A stretch of 20,364 nt of DNA from a virus. The translations under genes were made by a program, and so were the position numbers. Below are positions 8,194 through 20,364 of the stretch, in pieces (the stretch's first letter is position 1; each line of letters starts with the position of its first letter). The stretch is taken from IMG/VR virus record IMGVR_UViG_3300025070_000311, positions 1-20,364 of that record. One strand, given 5' to 3'. Below the pieces are notes generated by a model that had not been told where the DNA came from, did not search any database, and saw nothing but the letters and a program-made list of their open reading frames with translations.

Positions 8194-8266
8194 CTCCTCC
8201 ACCTGGACTCGAACCAGGGACAGGGTGATTAACAGTCACCTGCTCTACCAACTGAGCTATAGAGGA
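8194..8266 (-). tRNA. tRNA-Asn (anticodon GTT)
   Basis: A complete 73-base cloverleaf. The 7-bp acceptor has one T-G wobble, the D arm is TAGCTCAGTTGGTAGAGCA, and the anticodon stem GGTGA/TCACC is perfect around CTGTTAA with anticodon GTT. The T arm carries TTCGAGT. Discriminator is G and CCA is not encoded. It lies five bases from tRNA-Thr, so both are probably cut from one transcript. Confidence 0.95.
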
Positions 8267-8271
8267 TTGAG

Positions 8272-8343
8272 AGCCTCTGACAAGATTTGAACTTGCGACC
8301 TGAGCTTTACAAAAGCCCTGCTCTACCACTGAGCTACGGAGGC
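8272..8343 (-). tRNA. tRNA-Thr (anticodon TGT)
   Basis: A 72-base cloverleaf. Acceptor GCCTCCG pairs with CAGAGGC except for a C6-A67 mismatch. The D arm is TAGCTCAGTGGTAGAGCA. Anticodon stem GGGCT/AGCTC (one G-T pair) holds TTTGTAA with anticodon TGT, reading ACA. The T loop is TTCAAAT. Discriminator T73 resembles plastid/cyanobacterial trnT. CCA is not encoded. It starts 14 bases after the stop of the 182-residue oxygenase gene. Confidence 0.92.
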
Positions 8344-8357
8344 GATAATAAGGCATC

Positions 8358-8906
8358 TTATTTAACAAAATTACTGTTCAATAAGATGCGATTCATACGT
8401 TTACTTGGTGAATGTCCCGTATGATAGAAACTACCATCAAAGAATACAATTCTATTCTTTTTAGGTTCTACAGTTTGTTGGACTGTATATGTTTCGGATT
8501 GTACTCTTTCGTTATAGATTACAGTATCCCCATCCGAATCTTTTAGATAAAGGATAGTAGTCCAATGAGGTTGTTTAAGATCTACATGAGGTGTATGTAA
8601 AGTATTTTTGGGTGACTTCACCGTCATGTCTAGTCTTGTTCTGATTAAAGATGCTTTCTCTTTAATGAGTTCCTGTTCCATTTTTAGTATAGCAGGAATC
8701 CATATTTGTCCTTTAGAATCATCAAATCGGAGTCCATAGTTAGGATCATATAATCCATGACTAAATCCATGTAACCAACCTGATTCGTCCTCAGTAAAAG
8801 TAGAAACATTTTTTTGATATTTCCATTCAAAAGATTGATTAGTTACACAATCTTCCAAATAATCAATATAATATTGATCTAGGAAATTATCAATTACTTT
8901 AATCAT
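8358..8906 (-). CDS. 2OG-Fe(II) oxygenase-fold protein (182 aa)
   Basis: A 182-residue protein with the layout of small phage 2-oxoglutarate/Fe(II)-dependent dioxygenases (prolyl-hydroxylase-like, double-stranded beta helix). The iron triad is visible as His107-x-Asp109 (LHTPHVDL) and His162 (FYHTGH). A following Arg, probably Arg173 in MNRILLNSNF, would bind 2-oxoglutarate. It opens MIKVIDNFLD, very similar to the opening of the second such protein at 9242-9739 (MKIVDNFLAE), so the two look like paralogues. Such enzymes hydroxylate protein side chains, nucleic acids or small molecules; the substrate here is unknown. A GAGAAAG sequence precedes the ATG. Short 68-base gap from tRNA-Leu; tRNA-Thr follows. 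Confidence 0.82.
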   Translation of the reverse strand: MIKVIDNFLDQYYIDYLEDCVTNQSFEWKYQKNVSTFTEDESGWLHGFSHGLYDPNYGLRFDDSKGQIWIPAILKMEQELIKEKASLIRTRLDMTVKSPKNTLHTPHVDLKQPHWTTILYLKDSDGDTVIYNERVQSETYTVQQTVEPKKNRIVFFDGSFYHTGHSPSKRMNRILLNSNFVK

Positions 8907-8974
8907 ACTACTTTCTCATTATGTAAAGGGGGCGCTGCTTCTACTTGCAGATCTTTTGTACTCCCCCAGGTATA

Positions 8975-9059
8975 TAGGAGTGGGGGGACTTGAACCCCCA
9001 CGAGATTAATTCTCAACAGATTTTAAGTCTGGTGCGTCTACCGATTCCGCCACACTCCC
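8975..9059 (-). tRNA. tRNA-Leu (anticodon TAA)
   Basis: An 85-base class II tRNA. Acceptor GGGAGTG pairs with CACTCCT, with a terminal G-T pair. The D stem is GCG/CGC. The loop CTTAAAA carries anticodon TAA, reading TTA. The long variable arm has a GAGA/TCTC stem, and the T stem is five G-C pairs with TTCAAGT. The top anticodon-stem pair is C27-T43, a mismatch. Its 5' 54 bases overlap the end of the 79-residue frame at 9006-9245. CCA is not encoded. Confidence 0.95.
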
Positions 9060-9245
9060 ATCAATGTGGAGCACCCCAATTTGTTTGGTGTTACCAATTT
9101 CCCAGGTAGGGGGATGAAAAGCACAATACTCATTGAATGTAATCTTCATTTCCTTATCTGTCAAGTTGCAATTTCTTGCTGCCTTTGGTAAGTTCCATTT
9201 AGCGGACCAAAGGTTTTCCATTGATTCGCGAGTTTCAGGTCTCAT
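9006..9245 (-). CDS. Small protein of unknown function, ending inside tRNA-Leu (79 aa)
   Basis: The first 60 residues (MRPETRESMENLWSAKWNLP, then AARNCNLTDKEMKITFNEYC) match a pattern I know from small uncharacterised cyanophage proteins: 'NLW-A-WNL-KAARNC-L--EEMK--F-EYC'. It is probably a helical, helix-turn-helix-like unit, though I cannot assign DNA binding. The frame has no stop before the tRNA, so the last 18 residues (roughly GSVAESVDAPDLKSVEN) are encoded by the 5' part of tRNA-Leu. The start shares ATGA with the stop of the 165-residue oxygenase gene, showing translational coupling. The true gene family may end earlier, and the tail may be an acquired extension. Confidence 0.7.
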   Translation of the reverse strand: MRPETRESMENLWSAKWNLPKAARNCNLTDKEMKITFNEYCAFHPPTWEIGNTKQIGVLHIDGSVAESVDAPDLKSVEN

Positions 9246-9739
9246 AAGAAATTAAAATTAATATTGAATCTGCCATGGGCATTGGTTGTTGTAGAAGAAC
9301 TGTGTTTAACTTGGGGATCGAAAAACATCATTCGATTTGCTACACTATCTACCTTAGTTCCATCTTCAAATAATGTGTATCCATCACATGTATTGATAGA
9401 AAATACTGCACCCATGTTTTTAAATGTATAATCAACGTGAAATGGGTGTGTTTTTACTTCAGGTGTCCAAGGGAAAAAATTTGCTTTGATTCTAAGTAGA
9501 GAACGCATCTGAATCTTACTCAGAAACATATGACTCATAATACCAAAGAAAGGACTCTTAGGTTCAAGTTGATGGTAAATCATATGTGTTCCCATCCATG
9601 ACCATGGTTCTGTTTTTTCACTGCTGTGAGCAACACTTTTTTGAATGTAGAAGGGAAATTCTTTATCATGAGTGTTCATGATAGTCATCTCAAGTATTCT
9701 AAAGTCATCCTCAGCAAGAAAGTTATCAACTATCTTCAT
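9242..9739 (-). CDS. 2OG-Fe(II) oxygenase-fold protein (165 aa)
   Basis: A 165-residue protein of the small phage 2-oxoglutarate/Fe(II) dioxygenase type. Candidate iron ligands are His101-x-Asp103 (HPFHVDY) and His146 (PQVKHSS). Arg157 in HGRFNINFNF is the likely 2-oxoglutarate-binding residue. The region MMFFDPQVKH fits the strand before the second ligand in the double-stranded beta-helix fold. It is a probable paralogue of the 182-residue protein downstream; both open with an I/V-DNFL signature. Its start overlaps the end of the upstream 73-residue gene by 14 bases, and its stop shares ATGA with the 79-residue gene. Substrate unknown. Confidence 0.82.
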   Translation of the reverse strand: MKIVDNFLAEDDFRILEMTIMNTHDKEFPFYIQKSVAHSSEKTEPWSWMGTHMIYHQLEPKSPFFGIMSHMFLSKIQMRSLLRIKANFFPWTPEVKTHPFHVDYTFKNMGAVFSINTCDGYTLFEDGTKVDSVANRMMFFDPQVKHSSSTTTNAHGRFNINFNFL

Positions 9740-10190: not shown

Positions 10191-12776
10191 TCAGTTCAGT
10201 TTGATTGTCAGAGCAGTCAGTTGCATAATGCCAGCAGCAGCAGTTAATGCCATGGCACCAGCGGTAGCAGTAAGGGTCGCAGCACCTGCTCCAACTGTTG
10301 TAGTCCATGCACCAGCACCAACATTACAAACATATGCGCCAGCACCAATATTTAGATTATATCCTGCTGCTCCACACTGTCTAGTGATCGTTCCTGCTGC
10401 GATGATAATCGAGTTGGTAGGAACAGTATCAACACCATTCAATGCTCCAGGAGTCTGTGTCGTAATAATAGATCCTGCACATACAGTAGTAATACCAACC
10501 TTTGCTGCCAATGGATTGGGTGGAGTATTAATCAACTGTGTTAAGTGTGTTGTGGACATATTGATTGTACTGTCCCCTGCTAGCGTAAGTTCACCAGCAG
10601 CATATGTTTGTTTAGAACAACTATTATCCAGAACCCCACCAGAAATTTGATGCTTATTTGCATGTAGATCCATTTCTGCTGACTGTAGATTCAATCTAGC
10701 ACCAGTAACATTCACATCAAGGTCAGAACCAAACCGCATAGTATGTTTCTGAATACTTTGTCCTGATCCATTACTTTCACCGTTCTTATCTACCATTCGG
10801 GGACCACCTTCAGCAGACAAGAAGAATCCCCCACCAACTTCAAGATGGCAATTGCCAGTAACTTTTAAGAAATAATCCCCATTAATAGTTCTAACGTAAT
10901 CATTATCGATAATTTTACAATCATCACCAGCAACTGATGCTGTTAAGTTGCCCGCATAACTGACGTCATCAGCAACTAATGAACCAGTATTTCCTTTACC
11001 AGAGTTATTATCTTTTTCAAATTGTTTTACTGCTTTTTGTATTTCTTCCTCTGTTGCATCAGGGTTCTTTCTCTGAAATTGATCTTGTGCATTTCTTCTT
11101 GCTGCCTCGGTCTGATTAATATTTGTGGAAATATGCGTAGTACCATTTGCTCTTTTTGATACTGTTGCTTGACGACCAGGAGTACCGATATGAAGTTCAG
11201 ACGCACCATCTAAAAATGTTGTCGCGGCAACTAGATATGGATCTGCATCTTCTAAGATAGAATCTATAAGACTACCAGCACCAAAAGCATCTCCACAAGA
11301 TTTTCTCCCCCTATCAGTACCCATGATCTTTTGAATACTCTCAAGTTCTTCCTCAGTACAATGAGTTACACCATATAAAGGATACCAACCAACAGTATCT
11401 TTACCACCATCAGCACTTCTACCACAAGGAGTAGGAATAAACTTAATGAATAACTTAATAAGACCTGTGATACTTGTAATACCATTCAAAAGACCATCAA
11501 ATCCTGCAGCAAAAATTTCAGAACCTTGTTGCCATGCATCAATGATTTCAGTTGCTTGCTCATATCCGCTTACGATAGTCTTTACAGTATCAACTACAGA
11601 CAGCATAGTAGAAAGAACTGACTGTACACTACAGACAATGCTGTTAACAACATCCTGAACACCTTGTACAACCAATGCTGCCTTATCAATCAGACCATCC
11701 AAAAATGAATCTAACTGTGAAGTCAATGCTCCAATAGGATCCTGAATCATGCCAATCAATTGATTATCGACTGCACACAATGCTTTCAGGATAGTAACAA
11801 CTGCTGTCTGAATTACTGTCGTAAGAGCAAAAGGAATACCCGCACCAATTGAACCTAAGAGATTCACTAACTCTAGTTGTTCAGCAAGAGCACTAATCTG
11901 TTGCCTAATTGCAGAAACAATTTGAGCGAATACAGCACCTAAAAAGTTTTGCATCTTTGCCATTAGTGCTTTTGCACTAACGAGTTTGCCAGTAACAATA
12001 TTTAAGAAGTCGCCATCTTCTGCTTTAACTAGGTTACCTGCATGAGACGCAATATCTTCTACGAGATATGATAGTTGGTACTCTAACGTTTTCCAAGGTC
12101 CACCAACACCATTTGCAGCAGGAAGAGGTTTACTTACAGTCTTTGGTTTATGAGGATTACCAGAACTACCAGCAGTGTAAGAACCAATAGTTCTACCTGC
12201 TGGTGCTCCTTTACCAGCAACCTGTGTTGTTTTTGTTCCACCAGGAATAGGAACACTGTTATTACCGTCGTTACCTCTTTGTTTATTTCCTGCGTTACCT
12301 CTCTCGTTAACTACACTATAAGTTGGATCTGCAGGATGATATAAGACTGGATTTACATGACCAGTGCTACCTGGTTCCATAGTTTCGCCTGTAAAAGCAA
12401 AGACATTCTTGGTATTAGTTTCAGGAGATTTGTTAACACGCATAACACCCATAACAATAGGCATTTGAGCGTTTTCTCCATCCATGAAGAAACCCATAAC
12501 AATTGCACCTGGTTGCAACTGTCCAGAACTTTCACCCTGACCATCATTACCTGGTTGAGACGTATGCTGTAGTACAGTTGCCCAAGGTAATGCTTCTGTA
12601 GGAAGATCAGCAGTTGTTCCACCTCTTACATTGGTGTAGTATCCCAGAACTCGGACTTTCACTCGTCCAAGTTCCATAGGGTCGGTATTATCTTCTACTT
12701 CGCCAACCCACCAAAAGAATCCGTCTTTACCAACAAAATTGATAGTGGGTTCATTAATGATACCATCAATAGACAT
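10191..12776 (-). CDS. 5: Baseplate hub / central spike protein, gp5-like (861 aa)
   Basis: T4 gp5-type central spike: it sits at the tip of the tail tube and punctures the outer membrane. Residues about 10-115 form the OB-fold typical of gp5/VgrG (DPMELGRVKVRVLGYYTN, LPWATVLQHTSQPGNDGQ, GFFMDGENAQMPIVMGVMR). Residues about 225-445 are long hydrophobic and amphipathic helices. Residues about 600-861 are repeats (EVGGGFFLSAEG, then GAG-x-x-x-x-VGAGA-type units) expected to form the triple beta-helix needle. T4 gp5 has a lysozyme domain after the OB-fold; I see no lysozyme motif here, only the helical region. The late box at 12800-12807 precedes the gene, with AAAGG upstream of the ATG. The accessory sigma70 promoter starts three bases after its stop. 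Confidence 0.85.
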   Translation of the reverse strand: MSIDGIINEPTINFVGKDGFFWWVGEVEDNTDPMELGRVKVRVLGYYTNVRGGTTADLPTEALPWATVLQHTSQPGNDGQGESSGQLQPGAIVMGFFMDGENAQMPIVMGVMRVNKSPETNTKNVFAFTGETMEPGSTGHVNPVLYHPADPTYSVVNERGNAGNKQRGNDGNNSVPIPGGTKTTQVAGKGAPAGRTIGSYTAGSSGNPHKPKTVSKPLPAANGVGGPWKTLEYQLSYLVEDIASHAGNLVKAEDGDFLNIVTGKLVSAKALMAKMQNFLGAVFAQIVSAIRQQISALAEQLELVNLLGSIGAGIPFALTTVIQTAVVTILKALCAVDNQLIGMIQDPIGALTSQLDSFLDGLIDKAALVVQGVQDVVNSIVCSVQSVLSTMLSVVDTVKTIVSGYEQATEIIDAWQQGSEIFAAGFDGLLNGITSITGLIKLFIKFIPTPCGRSADGGKDTVGWYPLYGVTHCTEEELESIQKIMGTDRGRKSCGDAFGAGSLIDSILEDADPYLVAATTFLDGASELHIGTPGRQATVSKRANGTTHISTNINQTEAARRNAQDQFQRKNPDATEEEIQKAVKQFEKDNNSGKGNTGSLVADDVSYAGNLTASVAGDDCKIIDNDYVRTINGDYFLKVTGNCHLEVGGGFFLSAEGGPRMVDKNGESNGSGQSIQKHTMRFGSDLDVNVTGARLNLQSAEMDLHANKHQISGGVLDNSCSKQTYAAGELTLAGDSTINMSTTHLTQLINTPPNPLAAKVGITTVCAGSIITTQTPGALNGVDTVPTNSIIIAAGTITRQCGAAGYNLNIGAGAYVCNVGAGAWTTTVGAGAATLTATAGAMALTAAAGIMQLTALTIKLN

Positions 12777-13499: not shown

Positions 13500-13571
13500 T
13501 GCCCGAAGAGGGGATCGAACCCCCGACAATCTCCGTGTAAAGGAGGTGCTCTACCTCTGAGCTATTCGGGC
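13500..13571 (-). tRNA. tRNA-Val (anticodon TAC)
   Basis: A 72-base cloverleaf. The 7-bp acceptor GCCCGAA/TTCGGGC is perfect and the D arm is TAGCTCAGAGGTAGAGCA. The anticodon loop TTTACAC carries TAC, reading GTA. The T arm GGGGG/CCCTC has one G-T pair and loop TTCGATC. The top anticodon-stem pair is C27-A43, a mismatch. Discriminator is A; CCA is not encoded. Its first ten bases contain the end and stop codon of cpeT. Confidence 0.94.
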
Positions 13572-14020
13572 TTCCTAGTGAAGCGATACAGTTCTGTACT
13601 ACCCCACATAAGTTCACCTGTTTCCAAGTCTCTTCCTTGGTCACAAGTATGTAGTTTGTCTTTATAGACGTGTATTTCAGAAATTACACGGTCTCCCCTA
13701 TAACCTCTACATTTATCTCCAGCAAGTTGACCGTGCCAAGCATTGCCATCGAACTTAAATATCATATCACAATCTTCGTGTCTTGTCCAGTCCAAGTGAT
13801 AGTTCTCTACTAACACTTCGGTTTCGGACAATACAACTATCCTGTGATTCTTCTGACGATAAGGAGACTCTGGACCTTCTCGTCTCTTGAAATTTGTAGA
13901 TTGAAATCCATCATCATGACGTTTCCAAGTGATCTCTACAGAAACCCAATTGCATGGATCAGATTGTGCTTGGTGGCGATTTTCCCAATGACCTAAGATA
14001 TAGTCTTCAAATTTAGCCAT
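13562..14020 (-). CDS. cpeT: CpeT/CpcT-family phycobiliprotein lyase
   Basis: A 152-residue protein with the CpeT/CpcT family pattern in order: GHW (10-12), QAQSDP (17-22), PYRQ (53-56), CDMIFKF (84-90), GDKCRG (101-106) and DQGRDLETGELMWGS (127-141). In cyanobacteria this family binds bilin and helps attach it to phycobiliproteins. Cyanophage versions are known as auxiliary metabolic genes, thought to bind bilin and influence light harvesting during infection. It is shorter than many host CpeT proteins but has all recognisable blocks. A near-consensus sigma70 promoter at 14047-14075 lies directly upstream, and the stop codon (TAG) falls inside tRNA-Val. The ribosome binding site is weak. Confidence 0.9.
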   Translation of the reverse strand: MAKFEDYILGHWENRHQAQSDPCNWVSVEITWKRHDDGFQSTNFKRREGPESPYRQKNHRIVVLSETEVLVENYHLDWTRHEDCDMIFKFDGNAWHGQLAGDKCRGYRGDRVISEIHVYKDKLHTCDQGRDLETGELMWGSTELYRFTRKPE

Positions 14021-14076: not shown

Positions 14077-14304
14077 TCAATCCTCGTAAACTAAACACTC
14101 AGGTTCAGATGGATTTTGATCACAGAAAAGTTCTAAGTAACTAGGATCGTGATGATCGCCAGCTTCAATTTCTTTTTTGTGATGCTCTACATACTCTTCT
14201 AACTCATGCAACTCGCCTTCAATGTGACGTCGTTGCTGTGGAGATGTAGACGGACTGTCTAGAATCTCTTTATCGACAGCAATATGCTTCTCGATACTTT
14301 CCAT
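14077..14304 (-). CDS. cp12: CP12-like Calvin-cycle regulator
   Basis: A 75-residue, highly charged protein. The C-terminus DPSYLELFCDQNPSEPECLV matches the CP12 C-terminal block (Y-CD-NP---EC--YED/DD) that binds GAPDH, with Cys61 and Cys70 as the expected disulphide pair. The N-terminal half (MESIEKHIAVDKEIL, ELHELEEYVEHH) is helical, like marine picocyanobacterial and phage CP12. The N-terminal Cys pair of canonical CP12 is absent. CP12 holds GAPDH and phosphoribulokinase in an inactive complex, and in phages it is thought to turn off carbon fixation and favour the pentose phosphate pathway. A perfect AAGGAGGA ribosome binding site lies at 14308-14315, with a late box at 14326-14333. cpeT follows after its own promoter. 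Confidence 0.87.
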   Translation of the reverse strand: MESIEKHIAVDKEILDSPSTSPQQRRHIEGELHELEEYVEHHKKEIEAGDHHDPSYLELFCDQNPSEPECLVYED

Positions 14305-14337: not shown

Positions 14338-15711
14338 TTATATGGTGGAATCCTTCATTAAAAGCAATTCCGTAGTCATGTTAACGCCATTAGTATCATG
14401 AGTCAAGCTAGCAATTAGATATCTACCACTATATCTACGGTCTACTTTAGGTGTCTTTCCAGATTTTGCTGAGGTAGGAATGATGATATCAATTCCTGAA
14501 CCAACATACAAATCCATATTTCCTGGAATAGTTATTTGTAGTTTGATAGTCTTTAGACTTTCAATCCTCATCCATTGGTATGCCTGGAGTTCTACGAGTG
14601 ACTCATAATTTTTTTGAGGATTATCTTCAAATCTTTGATCAAAAATTTGATTCGGAAGAATTGTGTATCTAACTCTCTTTGGATACTCAATTAATTTCTG
14701 AATTCCCTGATCCATAGAATTAATAATATTCTTATTACCACCGTCTTTCAAGTGAGACATACTATTCCAGTATGTGTTGATATTATAATAATGAGCATCT
14801 ACAGAGATGTCTGTACTAATACCCATTTTAGATTGTGTAATGGTAGTTGGGTCAAATCCAATACTATAACCAGACCATGTACCATGACGTAATCCCATCA
14901 AAAAGTTCTTCTCTTCAGGAAAAACTACAGCATTAATTCTATATTGGTCTGCAGCACCATCATCTGCTATATTTTTTGGTGCTTGAGTATACCTATACAA
15001 TCTTGGTTGTCCAGTATTGATATTAGTTTCTTCATTATCCTTCATGGCATTTGCATCATCAATCATCTTATCGATAGACTTGTAATGATATCCTAATGCA
15101 TTCTCAAAAAATGCAAATCCATTCTGCAATGAAGTACCTGCTGATTTACGAATAGATCTCTCAGTCATCCAGTAGATTGCATCAAATGGTCTCCAGTTAG
15201 GAATGATAAATTTATGGTCATTTAATGTTTCTTCTAGATACAGTCTTTTTCTAGTCCCAATATATCTGCTACTCTTTAATATATCTTCAACAATCTGAGA
15301 AGTTTCAGTTTTATTCTTAAAGATAACATCAGTCATACCAAATATGTTTACTGCTTCATTCTTAATAAACTCATCTGATGCTAAGTTGATAACATATACG
15401 TCAGTATCTTGATTTGTTCTAGAACGAGATAGGATATTATATGAACGCATAAAAAATGTTCGATCAATGATACTTCCTACAATCTGTACTTTAAAAAGTT
15501 CAGATCCTGTGAAGGTATTAACCAAACCAGCAGAATCTTCAATAACAAGTTTTGCTTCCATTGTAGAGGAAGTAATAGATTCATATATCTGGAATCCCCT
15601 AACAAAATCTTTGATGTCATATTGACCATTAGGAGTCTTTAATTTTTCACCATCGCGAAAGATGGATACGGAGATTTCTACATCACCAGGATTTTCTCTA
15701 AAAATTGTCAT
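14338..15711 (-). CDS. Baseplate hub protein candidate, gp27/gpD-like (457 aa)
   Basis: A 457-residue protein without signal or membrane segment. The N-terminal part (YDIKDFVRGFQIYESITSST, then MEAKLVIEDSAGLVNTFTGS and ELFKVQIVG) resembles the first tube-like beta barrel of hub proteins of the gp27/gpD class, which connect the tail tube to the gp5 spike. The C-terminal part (LQITIPGNMDLYVGSGIDII, then YSGRYLIASLTHDT) looks like a second barrel of the same class. The gene shares ATGA with the upstream 892-residue gene, and gp5 is the next virion gene downstream, as expected for a partner of the spike. The T4 gp27 identification is by pattern and context only; it could be another tail-tip protein. 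Confidence 0.6.
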   Translation of the reverse strand: MTIFRENPGDVEISVSIFRDGEKLKTPNGQYDIKDFVRGFQIYESITSSTMEAKLVIEDSAGLVNTFTGSELFKVQIVGSIIDRTFFMRSYNILSRSRTNQDTDVYVINLASDEFIKNEAVNIFGMTDVIFKNKTETSQIVEDILKSSRYIGTRKRLYLEETLNDHKFIIPNWRPFDAIYWMTERSIRKSAGTSLQNGFAFFENALGYHYKSIDKMIDDANAMKDNEETNINTGQPRLYRYTQAPKNIADDGAADQYRINAVVFPEEKNFLMGLRHGTWSGYSIGFDPTTITQSKMGISTDISVDAHYYNINTYWNSMSHLKDGGNKNIINSMDQGIQKLIEYPKRVRYTILPNQIFDQRFEDNPQKNYESLVELQAYQWMRIESLKTIKLQITIPGNMDLYVGSGIDIIIPTSAKSGKTPKVDRRYSGRYLIASLTHDTNGVNMTTELLLMKDSTI

Positions 15712-18386
15712 TTGAAAATACCTCTGAGAGGATTATTAGTAGAACCAAGAAGAGCAGCAGCAGTTCCGACGAGAGCACCACCAATGTTCACACCGCCGCC
15801 ACCAGCACCTCCTCCTCCGCCTCCACCGCGACTACCGACCACTACAGGAGGTCCTTTCCTTTGTCCTGCTTGTATTGCCATCTGGACCGCTTGCTGTGCC
15901 TGTGCAACCATCTGAGAGTTCATACCATTTGATTGGCCAACTTGTTCTATGACAGCACCAACCATCTCGCGTGTTCTTTCATTTATTCTCTCCCTTGCTT
16001 CATTACGTTCTTCAGTTGATCTCGAAAGACTGCCTCGTCTGCCCCGTGCTTTAATCTCTGCATCGCGTTGTGGTGCTGCAGTTTTAGTTCTTCCACCTTT
16101 AACACTTGTCGTTGGACCACCGAGAATCATATTCCCCATACTTCCAGAAGAAGAACTGCTACTGCTGCTATTACTAGAACTCATAGTACCAGAACCAGCA
16201 CCAAATCCTCCACTGGTAGTAGCACCACCTGCTTTCATTGCTGCAGAAACAGCAGCATCACTTTCATGTTGCAATCCAATCCAGGTACTCTTCAATGTAG
16301 ATACGTTACCTCCAGTCTGTTTCACTAAAGCAACACCGAGTTTATTTTGAGTTTCTGGTGAGAACTGATCTGTTTTATTAACAACACCTTGGTCAACTAA
16401 ACCCTTTAAAGTACTTCCAATAAACTGATAACGACCGACAGCATGTAACTTACCAGATGATTTCCACTGAGCATCACTCATGGTTCCATCATCATATTGC
16501 TTGTCCATGACCTCCTGAACGGTCATAGAAGTTAGTTCTTTACCAGATGGATTAAATGGTGCCTTTCTATAGTCTCCACTGTATCCAAGAGCAGTGTGGC
16601 CACCATCAGCACCACCCTGATTAACTGCGTTATATCCTCCAACACTATCAGATTCTCTCTTACCAATAAGATCGAGAATAGCACCATAACCCCCTGCTGC
16701 AGCAGGCATATTAGTATTACCGCTGCCACCTTGAATACCTGAACTAATACCATCTAAGAAACCTAGATGTAAGTGAGTTGGGTGTCCTGTATTTCCAGGT
16801 CCAGTCTTACCACCACCTTTAAACCATGATCCCCATCCATCAGTGATGATTTGGGATAGTTTCATTTTATCGCGAAGTTGATATGCTTCCTCTGCTAATT
16901 GTGCAGTTCTTGCTTTCCAAGCACCAGCTCTCCAATCAGTAATATCAATTGCTAAACCTTTATAATGAAGACTACCAGAACTATGCCCACCAACTGCTTC
17001 ACCACCATTTTTATTAAATCCAACTCCTCTATTAGGACCACTACCACTATGATTATTCTTTCTAAAGTTTGGATGCTCGGCAACAGTAAAACCTTTATCT
17101 AATGCCCATTTACCACCAGCAGCAACTGCCTGTAAACCAGCACCTATAACTGGTTTTTCTTCTTGCCCCTTCTTCGATACAGGTTCGGTTGTAGTTGTTT
17201 TTGGTTTTCCACCACCACCAGTGAGACTGTTCCACCAATTTCCTACAGCACCCATCGCACCACCAAGAGCCATCTCAGGAACTTTTCCTCCTTGAGATCT
17301 ACCAGGAACTTTATATCCCTGACTTCTTGCTTCACCAAGTCTCTTCTGAGTTAAGTGAGGTTGCGTTTTTGTTCCAGGAGTATTAAAAGGAACGACGAAA
17401 GCTCCCCCATTGCTCTTTCTAGCAACATACTCAGTTCCATGTCCGATGAACGAGGTTGATCTCCCCCCGTCCAAAGATACCTTGTATCCTGATTGTGGTC
17501 CACTAATCCATCCTCCTTGTGATCTACTTGGAAGATTCTTGACTGAACCTCCTTGGGATTTCTCTTCGTCTTTATTATTTAATGCATTGAGACCAATCAT
17601 TGTCCCCCCTGCTATTGCAGTACCAAGCAGAATTTTTCCTAAAGCACCGCCCCTTCTACCACCTCGTCTACCAGGGAGACCACCACCACCTCGTCCACCG
17701 CCACGAGTGACAAACTTAATCAGAGCACGAACACCCTTCGCAATATCAGTAATAATCTTAGTTGGATTCTTTAAGTACCTAATACCTAATACAATCGAAC
17801 CAATTCCAACAATTGCTTTACCAAATCCTAAAAGTCTCTCTTGCCAAGTCGCATCATCTTTAAGTAAATCATAGAGACCATCGATGGTAGTTGTGATACT
17901 CCATTTTGCCCAATCAAAAATAAATTGAACAACAGTCTTAATGACGTCTAAGATTTTTACAATTGTATCTTGATTTTTCGGATCACTTAACCATTTAAGA
18001 ACTGGAATGACAACTGCTATTTTAAACAGATTACCAAATAAACCAAGAAGTCCTTCTAGAAAACTTCCACTTTTTGATAAGACACCAGATACAAGACCAC
18101 CTTGTTTCTTTTCCTTCTTTGGTGTTGTAAATTCTGGTTTAAATTGAGTTTTATCCTTTTTTTGTGCTTCTAAGTTACTAAGACTAACTTTTTTAAGATC
18201 TACAAGAACTTTGCCGAGAGAATTTACAGTCTCTCCTAGGTTGTTGATTGCACGAGTATTCGTGTTTATTGACTTCGCTAAAACAATATCAGATTTTTTT
18301 ACGTCAGGATCAGCACTGCCCGAGGGATCTTTGACCTGTACGAACTTATAAAAATTAATTTTTGAACTTTTTTGTACAGTTGCCAT
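15708..18386 (-). CDS. Tail protein with M15-like peptidase and lysozyme-like domains (892 aa)
   Basis: An 892-residue modular protein. Residues 1-90 look helical or coiled-coil. Residues about 98-225 hold several hydrophobic helices, then a Gly/Arg stretch (228-250) and a further hydrophobic segment (251-268). Residues about 415-545 contain SLHYKGLAIDI (His474, Asp481) and HPTHLHLGF (His538, His540), the zinc pattern SxHxxGxAxD...HxH of M15-type peptidoglycan peptidases. Residues about 566-718 look like a lysozyme/transglycosylase: LIGKRES with candidate catalytic Glu578, and GRYQFIGSTL (651-660). A poly-Ser linker (about 735-749), a charged helix and a glycine-rich tail follow. It starts in TAATG overlap with the upstream tail gene. 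I infer a tail-borne cell-wall opening role; it may double as tape measure. Confidence 0.65.
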   Translation of the reverse strand: MATVQKSSKINFYKFVQVKDPSGSADPDVKKSDIVLAKSINTNTRAINNLGETVNSLGKVLVDLKKVSLSNLEAQKKDKTQFKPEFTTPKKEKKQGGLVSGVLSKSGSFLEGLLGLFGNLFKIAVVIPVLKWLSDPKNQDTIVKILDVIKTVVQFIFDWAKWSITTTIDGLYDLLKDDATWQERLLGFGKAIVGIGSIVLGIRYLKNPTKIITDIAKGVRALIKFVTRGGGRGGGGLPGRRGGRRGGALGKILLGTAIAGGTMIGLNALNNKDEEKSQGGSVKNLPSRSQGGWISGPQSGYKVSLDGGRSTSFIGHGTEYVARKSNGGAFVVPFNTPGTKTQPHLTQKRLGEARSQGYKVPGRSQGGKVPEMALGGAMGAVGNWWNSLTGGGGKPKTTTTEPVSKKGQEEKPVIGAGLQAVAAGGKWALDKGFTVAEHPNFRKNNHSGSGPNRGVGFNKNGGEAVGGHSSGSLHYKGLAIDITDWRAGAWKARTAQLAEEAYQLRDKMKLSQIITDGWGSWFKGGGKTGPGNTGHPTHLHLGFLDGISSGIQGGSGNTNMPAAAGGYGAILDLIGKRESDSVGGYNAVNQGGADGGHTALGYSGDYRKAPFNPSGKELTSMTVQEVMDKQYDDGTMSDAQWKSSGKLHAVGRYQFIGSTLKGLVDQGVVNKTDQFSPETQNKLGVALVKQTGGNVSTLKSTWIGLQHESDAAVSAAMKAGGATTSGGFGAGSGTMSSSNSSSSSSSSGSMGNMILGGPTTSVKGGRTKTAAPQRDAEIKARGRRGSLSRSTEERNEARERINERTREMVGAVIEQVGQSNGMNSQMVAQAQQAVQMAIQAGQRKGPPVVVGSRGGGGGGGAGGGGVNIGGALVGTAAALLGSTNNPLRGIFK

Positions 18387-20364
18387 TATTGTGATCTCGT
18401 CGTTATGCTAGAAGGAGTCGCTTTAACTACTTCACCACCACCATTATTTATGGGAACAGCAGTAGGAATAGGAACCAACTTCTCAAGAATAACGGGAATA
18501 GGAATAAAGTCTAACGCCTGATTCATAGCATATTCAGCGGATATACCACCTTCAGACAATGCTTGAGATGCTACATCTTTAACCCCACCAATAACTTTAG
18601 GATCAACTCCTATCTGTCCTGCTATATCTGCCATAGCAGACATCATATCTCCACCCATCGCACCAGTAACTGCATTATAAAGTCCACCAAGTCCAAAGTG
18701 AGTTGCAGCACCTTGAATCATATTCATAGGATTCAATCCACCTTTCAATACAGAATTGGCAAATCCTCCTAAAGAAGGACTAAGCATCCCAAGTCCAGTA
18801 CTCAAAGCACCTCCAAAGTTTCCAGTTAATACATTAGAAGCAATTTGACCTATAGGTCCTGACATAAACTCACCAACCTTACCCATGATCCCACCCATAC
18901 CAGGAATCATTCCTAACATTGCCATAGGATTGCCCGTGGCAAGTGTATTAATGCCTGCCATGATAGGTGCAGCACCAGGAATAAACGATGCAGCAGTTCC
19001 AAGCACTTGTCCAATAGGACTTTGCATAACACCACTAACTGCCTTACCAATACCACCTGTAACTCCTTTGATGGCATTACCAACACTCTTAACTACACCA
19101 CCAAGGAACATCTCTTGTTCAGGAACTTCTTGTCCTTCATCTTCCTTCGCTTTACCCATAAGGGTATTAATAATCTCACCAATATTAGGCAGTTTTGATA
19201 ATACCTTATCAATATCAGTTTTTAATCCTCTTGCACCGATAGCATCAACAACTCCTTCTTCTCCCTCTTGCAATTGAGGAACAAAATCACGAACGAACAT
19301 ATATCCGTCAAGAAGCATTGATGCTACGTTACCAGCACCTGCTGTAGCAAGACCAGCAACATCTAAGATACCAGAAGTACCTTCAATCAATGCACCAATA
19401 GAGTCGCCATTTGCTGCCCTATCATAAGCAAATGCAAGGTTTACAATTCCACCAACAACAGGAAGAATTGCTGCTGCTCTTTTTCCTAACTTAGAACCTG
19501 CTGTTGCAACATCACCAAAACTAGCAATACCTTTCTTCTTAAGGATCTCTGTTGCCTTGTCCATCCCAGGCAGTTTCTTGAGCATATCGAACAATCCCTG
19601 TCCGATTTTTGCTGCCTTGTTTGCTATAGGATCAATGATCGGTTTTAATGGAGTTAAAATCTTCTCCAGGAAAAAGTTCTTAGCACCTGTTCCTAGTGAT
19701 TCAAGTCCACCCTTAAATGCATTTCCTGCAGCTGCTGACCACTTCCTACCCTTTTCTGCAATAAATTGAGTTGCCTTAACAGTGTTTTCCCAACCTGCTT
19801 TAGCTGCTTTGCTTAAATTACTATACTGCTTACCTGCCCAATCAGGAAGTCCTTTCAATCCTCTATGAAGTGCCCCAAGACCTCTCCTTCCTAGATCGAC
19901 ACTAGTATCAAGAGCACCACCAAAAAAGTTTCCTATTCTTGTTAAAGCACCTGGTTTGGGAGGATCAAGTTTTGGTAATTTAAGACGATTGAATGCTTTT
20001 AGTGCCTTGGATGCATCACCACCAGAGTTGCTTAATGCATTGGCATATGCTCTTGCAGCATCATCACCATACTCTGCAAGAATCTTCTTATATTGTTTTG
20101 ATGCTGCTTCACCAAACTGTTCCGCAACAGTAGATGCCTTTACTCTACCTCTAGGACCATCTAAGTCAGGGTCAGCACCAGAAGGGTTTGCTCGTGTAGG
20201 TTTTCTCGGTTTATCAGGTTTGTCAGGGTTTCTTGGTCTTGGATCAGGAGGATCTACAGGAAGATCTGGATCAAGAAGATTGCGAATACCATCTGCTGCT
20301 TTAATTAATCCAGCAATACCACCGATTGCAAGAGCAATTTTGCCGAACGCTTCAAGACGATCGT
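18386..20364 (-). CDS. Tail structural / tape-measure-like protein (5' end outside window)
   Basis: The frame is open from the right edge to a TAA at 18388-18386, giving 658 visible residues. A TTG at 19858 is in frame, but uninterrupted coding continues above it (for example FFGGALDTSVDLGRRGLG and a Pro/Asp-rich linker LLDPDLPVDPPDPRPRNPDK), so it is not the start. The protein is rich in Gly, Ala, Met and Lys, with many short hydrophobic helices (AAILPVVGGIVNLAFAYDRA; MLGMIPGMGGIMGKVGEF). Such low-complexity hydrophobic sequence is common in tail tape-measure and tail-tip proteins that enter the host membrane. The stop overlaps the next ATG by one base (TAATG), so the pair are coupled. The specific role is unproven. 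Confidence 0.6.
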   Translation of the reverse strand, partial: DRLEAFGKIALAIGGIAGLIKAADGIRNLLDPDLPVDPPDPRPRNPDKPDKPRKPTRANPSGADPDLDGPRGRVKASTVAEQFGEAASKQYKKILAEYGDDAARAYANALSNSGGDASKALKAFNRLKLPKLDPPKPGALTRIGNFFGGALDTSVDLGRRGLGALHRGLKGLPDWAGKQYSNLSKAAKAGWENTVKATQFIAEKGRKWSAAAGNAFKGGLESLGTGAKNFFLEKILTPLKPIIDPIANKAAKIGQGLFDMLKKLPGMDKATEILKKKGIASFGDVATAGSKLGKRAAAILPVVGGIVNLAFAYDRAANGDSIGALIEGTSGILDVAGLATAGAGNVASMLLDGYMFVRDFVPQLQEGEEGVVDAIGARGLKTDIDKVLSKLPNIGEIINTLMGKAKEDEGQEVPEQEMFLGGVVKSVGNAIKGVTGGIGKAVSGVMQSPIGQVLGTAASFIPGAAPIMAGINTLATGNPMAMLGMIPGMGGIMGKVGEFMSGPIGQIASNVLTGNFGGALSTGLGMLSPSLGGFANSVLKGGLNPMNMIQGAATHFGLGGLYNAVTGAMGGDMMSAMADIAGQIGVDPKVIGGVKDVASQALSEGGISAEYAMNQALDFIPIPVILEKLVPIPTAVPINNGGGEVVKATPSSITTRSQ

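Follow-up and report, generated by a model that had tools for sequence, protein, structure and literature searches.

Where does a T4-like cyanophage carry the enzymes with which it would breach the host cell wall? The question is raised by a 20,364-nucleotide stretch of viral DNA (positions 1 to 20,364 of IMG/VR record IMGVR_UViG_3300025070_000311; hereafter, the window), which comprises the tail region of a T4-like virus of marine cyanobacteria belonging to the S-RIM12/Syn33 group (Kyanoviridae, Brizovirus). An initial annotation proposed that the wall hydrolase of the spike protein gp5 had moved into a neighbouring 892-residue tail protein that combines a zinc peptidase with a lysozyme. We refer to this protein as Y (15708–18386, minus strand, as for all of its parts below; coordinates from the open-reading-frame list). 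Y is encoded in the baseplate-hub operon next to a tandem paralogue, X, and carries a predicted LAS/M15-type peptidase followed by a predicted lambda-type lysozyme; X and Y appear from their sequences to be exchangeable enzyme carriers. The closest record to the Y gene is S-RIM12_WH_07_0310 (90.5% DNA identity over the entire gene), relatives of Y are present in 312 cyanophage records, and Y matches PHROG_1200, named 'endolysin', over its full length (950 bits).

Predicted peptidase and lysozyme domains of Y

Pfam and NCBIfam scans with Y as a single sequence returned chance matches only and missed both domains, and a single-sequence PDB search returned low-complexity matches only. Because single-sequence scans fail, alignments are needed to see the domains, and we built them from IMG/VR relatives (21 sequences for the peptidase and 32 for the lysozyme). 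The candidate zinc peptidase domain spans residues 416–545 (16752–17141) and is recognized by its zinc pattern and a structure model. It contains the motif H-Y-K-G-L-A-I-D, running from H474 to D481 (16944–16967), and a distal H538-L-H540 (16767–16775), in which H540 is the putative third zinc ligand. The domain thus has the ligand arrangement H-x6-D plus a distal histidine within H-x-H, and H474, D481, H538 and H540 are identical in 21/21 aligned homologues, the catalytic pattern staying fixed while identity to the window drops to about 50%. The pattern S-x-H-x-x-G-x-A-x-D-[ILV]...H-x-H occurred in none of 20,000 shuffles of Y, and a loose form of it in 55. Weak library matches of the domain were mostly to LAS-type folds or their relatives (Peptidase_M15_4, the hedgehog N-domain and M74), with the hedgehog N-domain matching the 26-residue zinc motif at an E value of 0.003. 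A search of plasmids and bacterial genomes for relatives of the peptidase family found none.

The pattern has a counterpart in VldE (Spr1875), an L,D-endopeptidase described as having the LAS fold, in which H301, D308 and H375 bind zinc and H373 belongs to the active site (PMC11667670); H538 of Y is the counterpart of H373. The VldE domain takes its name from motif 3 of the tape-measure protein of mycobacteriophage TM4 (PMC1796659, PMC11667670), which has demonstrated peptidoglycan hydrolysis and assists the phage in infecting cells in stationary phase (PMC1796659). In the TM4 tape measure (NC_003387) we find H810-x6-D817 and H880-x-H882, the same HxxxxxxD...HxH arrangement as in Y, and the TM4 motif likewise sits inside a tail protein. 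By contrast with Y, TM4 has only this motif, and has it in a siphophage tape measure; the sequence similarity is too low for the Y peptidase profile to pick up.

The predicted glycan-cutting domain, lambda-lysozyme-like by profile and model, follows at residues 566–715 (16242–16691). Its Glu578 (16653–16655) is the putative catalytic acid and the counterpart of lambda lysozyme Glu19, and a GRYQ motif lies at residues 651–654 (16425–16436). E578, G651, Y653 and Q654 are identical in 32/32 aligned homologues and R652 is replaced by K once, so that Y has the catalytic Glu and G-[RK]-Y-Q of lambda lysozyme and GH104. Identity to the window falls to 31–50% with the predicted catalytic residues unchanged. 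Lambda lysozyme (a GH104 transglycosylase; 1am7/3d3d) aligns with the domain profile through its catalytic Glu, which lies within the segment aligned to Glu578, through GRYQ and through the following helix; the sequence similarity is remote, however (E value 0.085), and lambda lysozyme is a free endolysin. The Rpf-like family PF06737 was touched by 3/32 members of the lysozyme domain (E value 0.0013). The residues that the initial annotation had named (His474, Asp481, His540, Glu578 and the GRYQ at 651) are therefore where it placed them and invariant in homologues, and the M15-like and lysozyme-like regions are indeed in one 892-residue protein.

An AlphaFold model of residues 402–730, made with 54 sequences, gave a mean predicted local distance difference test score (pLDDT) of 81, with 83–98 in the lysozyme part and mostly 75–92 in the peptidase core, lower in the 518–534 loop. 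Its best PDB fold match was VldE (E value 0.11), and further matches included 1am7 lambda lysozyme at rank 8 (E value 1.1) and LdcB (M15B; E value 2.3); with E values above 0.1, we count these as supporting rather than as proof and never use them alone. Among predicted viral structures there were 27 fold matches at E ≤ 0.001, including a 'baseplate hub' protein of phage phiM12 (Sinorhizobium), a gp5-OB protein, gp5 of the jumbo phage Atu_ph07 and a 'Peptidase M15B'. Structure prediction and profile comparison, by which the initial annotation suggested its reading be checked, thus yielded a confident two-domain model together with VldE and lambda lysozyme matches that are all weak in E value.

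The X/Y carrier pair and enzyme exchange

The N-terminal carrier region of Y (residues 1–375; 17262–18386) is paralogous to residues ~5–225 of X (18386–20362, minus strand, cut by the window edge). The Y N terminus matched X proteins of several loci by BLASTP (E values 1e-10 to 1e-19), and its profile matched X of S-RIM12 isolates (1e-49 to 1e-55). The synteny 26-51-X-Y-gp27-like-CpeT-gp5 recurs in the records examined.

Comparison with S-RIM12 RW_01, a virus of the same genus, revealed a clean cassette swap within this conserved setting. Window and RW_01 Y proteins are 81% identical over residues 1–200, 77% over 271–375 and 72% over the conserved C-terminal tail (781–892; 15711–16046), with 56% in a variable stretch (201–270), whereas their cores share only 18–25% (376–545) and 22% (566–715). 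The RW_01 core consists of Amidase_2 plus Hydrolase_2 (SleB-type) domains. Because the flanks are alike and the core is unrelated, both enzymes have been exchanged while the flanks stayed. The gp27-like, CpeT, 226-residue and gp5 proteins of the two viruses are 82–91% identical, and another isolate, S-RIM12 WH_07, retains the window's enzymes at 86–90% identity. Syn33 Y also keeps the flanks around an Amidase_2 plus Hydrolase_2 core.

Across named cyanophages, Y carries M15 plus lambda-like lysozyme (window, S-RIM8 and S-CAM22), Amidase_2 plus lambda-like lysozyme (S-CAM8), Amidase_2 plus Hydrolase_2 (Syn33 and ACG-2014a/b), a GH24 T4-type lysozyme plus M15_3 (S-SM1 and P-RSM4) or a GH73 glucosaminidase plus M15_3 (S-RIM2). 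Elsewhere the two enzymes are split over the pair: M15 in X and lysozyme in Y (S-SZBM1), VanY in X and lysozyme in Y (ACG-2014d), or Hydrolase_2 in X and M15 in Y (SynMITS9220M01). At loci L024, L025 and L121 and in S-SZBM1, as in the window, X is a tandem paralogue of Y, and in some phages it holds one of the two enzymes. IMG/VR loci add M15 plus GH24, lysozyme plus M15_3, GH73 in X with M15 in Y, and M15 in X with GH73 in Y. In this same gene pair, Pfam cutoffs are cleared by M15_3 (S-RIM2 Y) and by VanY (ACG-2014d X).

By profile, 11 of the 15 named phages have one glycan cutter and one peptide or amide cutter, none has two enzymes of the same kind, and four have a single enzyme (P-SSM4, S-SM2, syn9 and S-MbCM6). 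These phages were mostly picked through the N-terminal region; S-SZBM1, SynMITS9220M01 and S-SM2 were added on the strength of an enzyme match or a mixed one, which leaves some bias in the sample. In syn9 and S-MbCM6, a Cys-containing, NlpC/P60-like stretch can be seen by eye before the SLT domain. The second-slot domains of loci L114, L115 and L122 had no match in a PDB profile search and are lysozyme-like by eye only. At loci L088, L082 and L098, an unrelated carrier of ~575 residues has a lambda-like lysozyme and then a weak M15-like match, in reversed order.

The replacement, at the same spot in sister viruses, of enzymes of both kinds by unrelated ones suggests that this site is a standard wall-breaching socket. 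More tentatively, and with a chance that we put somewhat short of even, the pair may form a two-slot socket in which unrelated glycosidases (lambda-like, GH24, GH73, SleB-type and SLT) and peptidases or amidases (LAS/M15, M15_3, VanY and Amidase_2) are exchanged, one of each chemistry always being kept by selection and the exchange adapting the phage to the type of host wall. Exchange would occur by recombination within the conserved flanks.

The double arrangement, regarded as unusual by the initial annotation, is ordinary for this clade, being the usual state of the X/Y pair, and it has a tested parallel in the Anabaena myophage A-1(L), where the peptidase domain of the hub protein gp15 and its 'endoglucanase' domain were able to lyse host cells in vitro (PMC10966104). 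As regards domain content, gp15 is likewise a single cyanophage tail-hub protein with several wall-hydrolase domains; in A-1(L), however, the enzymes are inside the barrel-domain hub protein itself, whereas here they are in Y, which has its own gene upstream of the gp27-like one. What stands out is that X and Y form a common carrier pair, that the cassette is swapped cleanly and that the enzymes pair in a complementary way; no paper found in our literature searches described any of these.

A probable virion role for Y

We consider that Y probably travels in the virion, as part of the tail hub, and serves to breach the wall. In this model, the N- and C-terminal parts of Y would hold the protein in the tail and its middle would bear the enzymes. 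The gp5-like spike would first pierce the outer membrane, after which Y, inside the hub or tube, would breach the peptidoglycan through joint cleavage of peptide and glycan: the peptidase domain would cut stem peptides with zinc bound on H474, D481 and H540, and the lysozyme domain would cut glycan strands through Glu578, leaving an opening through which DNA could enter. The middle of Y is an exchangeable cassette: related phages bear other enzymes there or divide the two between X and Y, and a peptide or amide cutter and a glycan cutter are kept in every pair in which both enzymes are identifiable. Consistent with carriage in the particle, X and Y homologues were found in purified virions of S-CREM2 by mass spectrometry (73 and 71 peptides), although the authors describe them as packaged endolysins (PMC10665884). 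S-CREM2 (L166:8289–17360) has the longest X and Y in this comparison; its Y combines a lambda-like lysozyme with GH24, and in its X amidase-like, NlpC/P60-like and GH19-like stretches can be seen by eye.

Several results weigh against the model or the pairing. Neither window domain reaches a Pfam cutoff, the Y peptidase matching Peptidase_M15_4 with an E value of 0.018 and 16 bits against a cutoff of 25, and the PDB fold matches are all weak one by one (E ≥ 0.11). The mass-spectrometry text on S-SZBM1 virions names neither X nor Y. P-SSM4, S-SM2 and loci L026 and L133 show an M15 domain alone, so the pairing may have exceptions, and many IMG/VR loci were gathered by searching for the same enzymes, which biases their counts.

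The alternative that survives best is compatible with our model and concerns what X and Y are in the tail: they could be the cyanophage tape-measure proteins, with embedded hydrolases as in TM4. This is a real possibility, although in our judgement a doubtful one. X and Y are long, hydrophobic and Gly-rich; in S-CREM2, the single long-tailed phage looked at (418-nm tail), they reach 1,565 and 1,456 residues, respectively; the ten genera listed for a tblastn search with T4 gp29 include no cyanophage genus; and the TM4 tape measure shares the zinc arrangement described above. Against it, the N-terminal region has no similarity to T4 gp29 (hhalign probability 0.1).

Y is unlikely to be a free endolysin that acts as infection ends to break the host open from inside. 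Such a role would agree with the names 'endolysin' and 'lysozyme murein' in PHROG_1200 and RefSeq, which cover the full-length family of Y, and with the absence of a Y homologue from the S-SZBM1 virion proteome list. Those names imply lysis from within, however, whereas the genome position of Y and the S-CREM2 proteomics point to the virion: Y has about 900 residues, an N-terminal carrier region in common with its tandem paralogue and a place in the baseplate-hub operon, and its homologues are abundant in S-CREM2 particles.

The gp5-like spike and neighbouring genes

If Y is the wall-breaching protein, what does gp5 retain? The gp5-like baseplate spike of the window (10191–12776, minus strand) has the OB fold and trimeric needle of T4 gp5, as the initial annotation held: the Gp5 OB domain was matched in 20/21 aligned members, and the match to T4 gp5 (1k28; E value 9e-23) covers OB and needle. 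No GH24 lysozyme is detectable between the two. Phage_lysozyme (PF00959) was found in 0/21 aligned members, and enzyme profiles matched none of nine gp5 proteins of named phages. The middle of the protein (residues 226–426; 11499–12101, minus strand), where a lysozyme fold might have been hidden, instead has predicted helices of 44, 44 and 38 residues, and a fold search with it returned mostly helical bundles; as the model has a pLDDT of only 46, we used it solely for secondary structure. Nothing detectable in the sequences of the tested proteins therefore supports the name 'tail lysozyme'. In these cyanophages gp5 carries the annotation 'baseplate hub + tail lysozyme', but the wall-cutting domains are in proteins labelled endolysin or hypothetical.

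Y would do the same job as T4 gp5 at the same stage; T4 does it with one GH24 lysozyme inside gp5, whereas the window has two other enzymes in another protein. The proposal that the gp5 lysozyme itself was relocated, with the window lysozyme as its descendant, draws on the spike lacking a lysozyme, on the T4-type GH24 lysozyme in Y of S-SM1 and P-RSM4, and on gp5 of Atu_ph07 (L165:3498–6095), which bears the window's own lysozyme family. We nevertheless find it improbable. The window lysozyme resembles lambda lysozyme and is not GH24; the S-SM1 GH24 domain matches T4 gp5 and T4 endolysin about equally and so shows no particular kinship with the gp5 versions; and cassettes at the Y site turn over even between sister phages. 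In Atu_ph07 the lysozyme is appended past the needle, whereas that of T4 is inserted between OB and needle, a placement that fits enzyme traffic among hub proteins and not one relocation. In the Atu_ph07 protein the lysozyme is followed by a trypsin-like peptidase domain (PF13365; E value 6e-17). Least probable of all is that one or both Y domains are degenerate, and structural or wall-binding only: neither reaches its family's curated score and only two of the three hub enzyme domains of A-1(L) are reported active, but every predicted catalytic residue in Y is invariant at the sequence divergence described above.

On the coding strand, the gene order is X (partial), Y, a 457-residue gp27-like protein, CP12, CpeT, tRNA-Val, a 226-residue protein and the gp5-like spike; Y is therefore not two genes upstream of gp5, as first annotated. 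The 457-residue protein (14338–15711, minus strand; PHROG_350 'tail protein') has a collinear but weak match to T4 gp27 (E value 0.07); its identity as gp27 is unproven, and 'gp27-like' rests on position. The genes cpeT (13562–14020) and CP12 (14077–14304, assigned by position and look alone) are photosynthesis and carbon-metabolism genes within the baseplate-hub operon, beside tRNA-Val. Genes for tRNAs Asn, Thr, Leu and Val lie at 8194–9060 and 13500–13571, and two small proteins (8358–8906 and 9242–9739) are 2OG-Fe(II) oxygenase-like by eye.

If the two-slot socket exists, sister phages that differ mainly in their cassette would be a natural experiment relating wall-breaching enzymes to host range, and the cassettes would be a source of enzyme pairs against cyanobacterial peptidoglycan.

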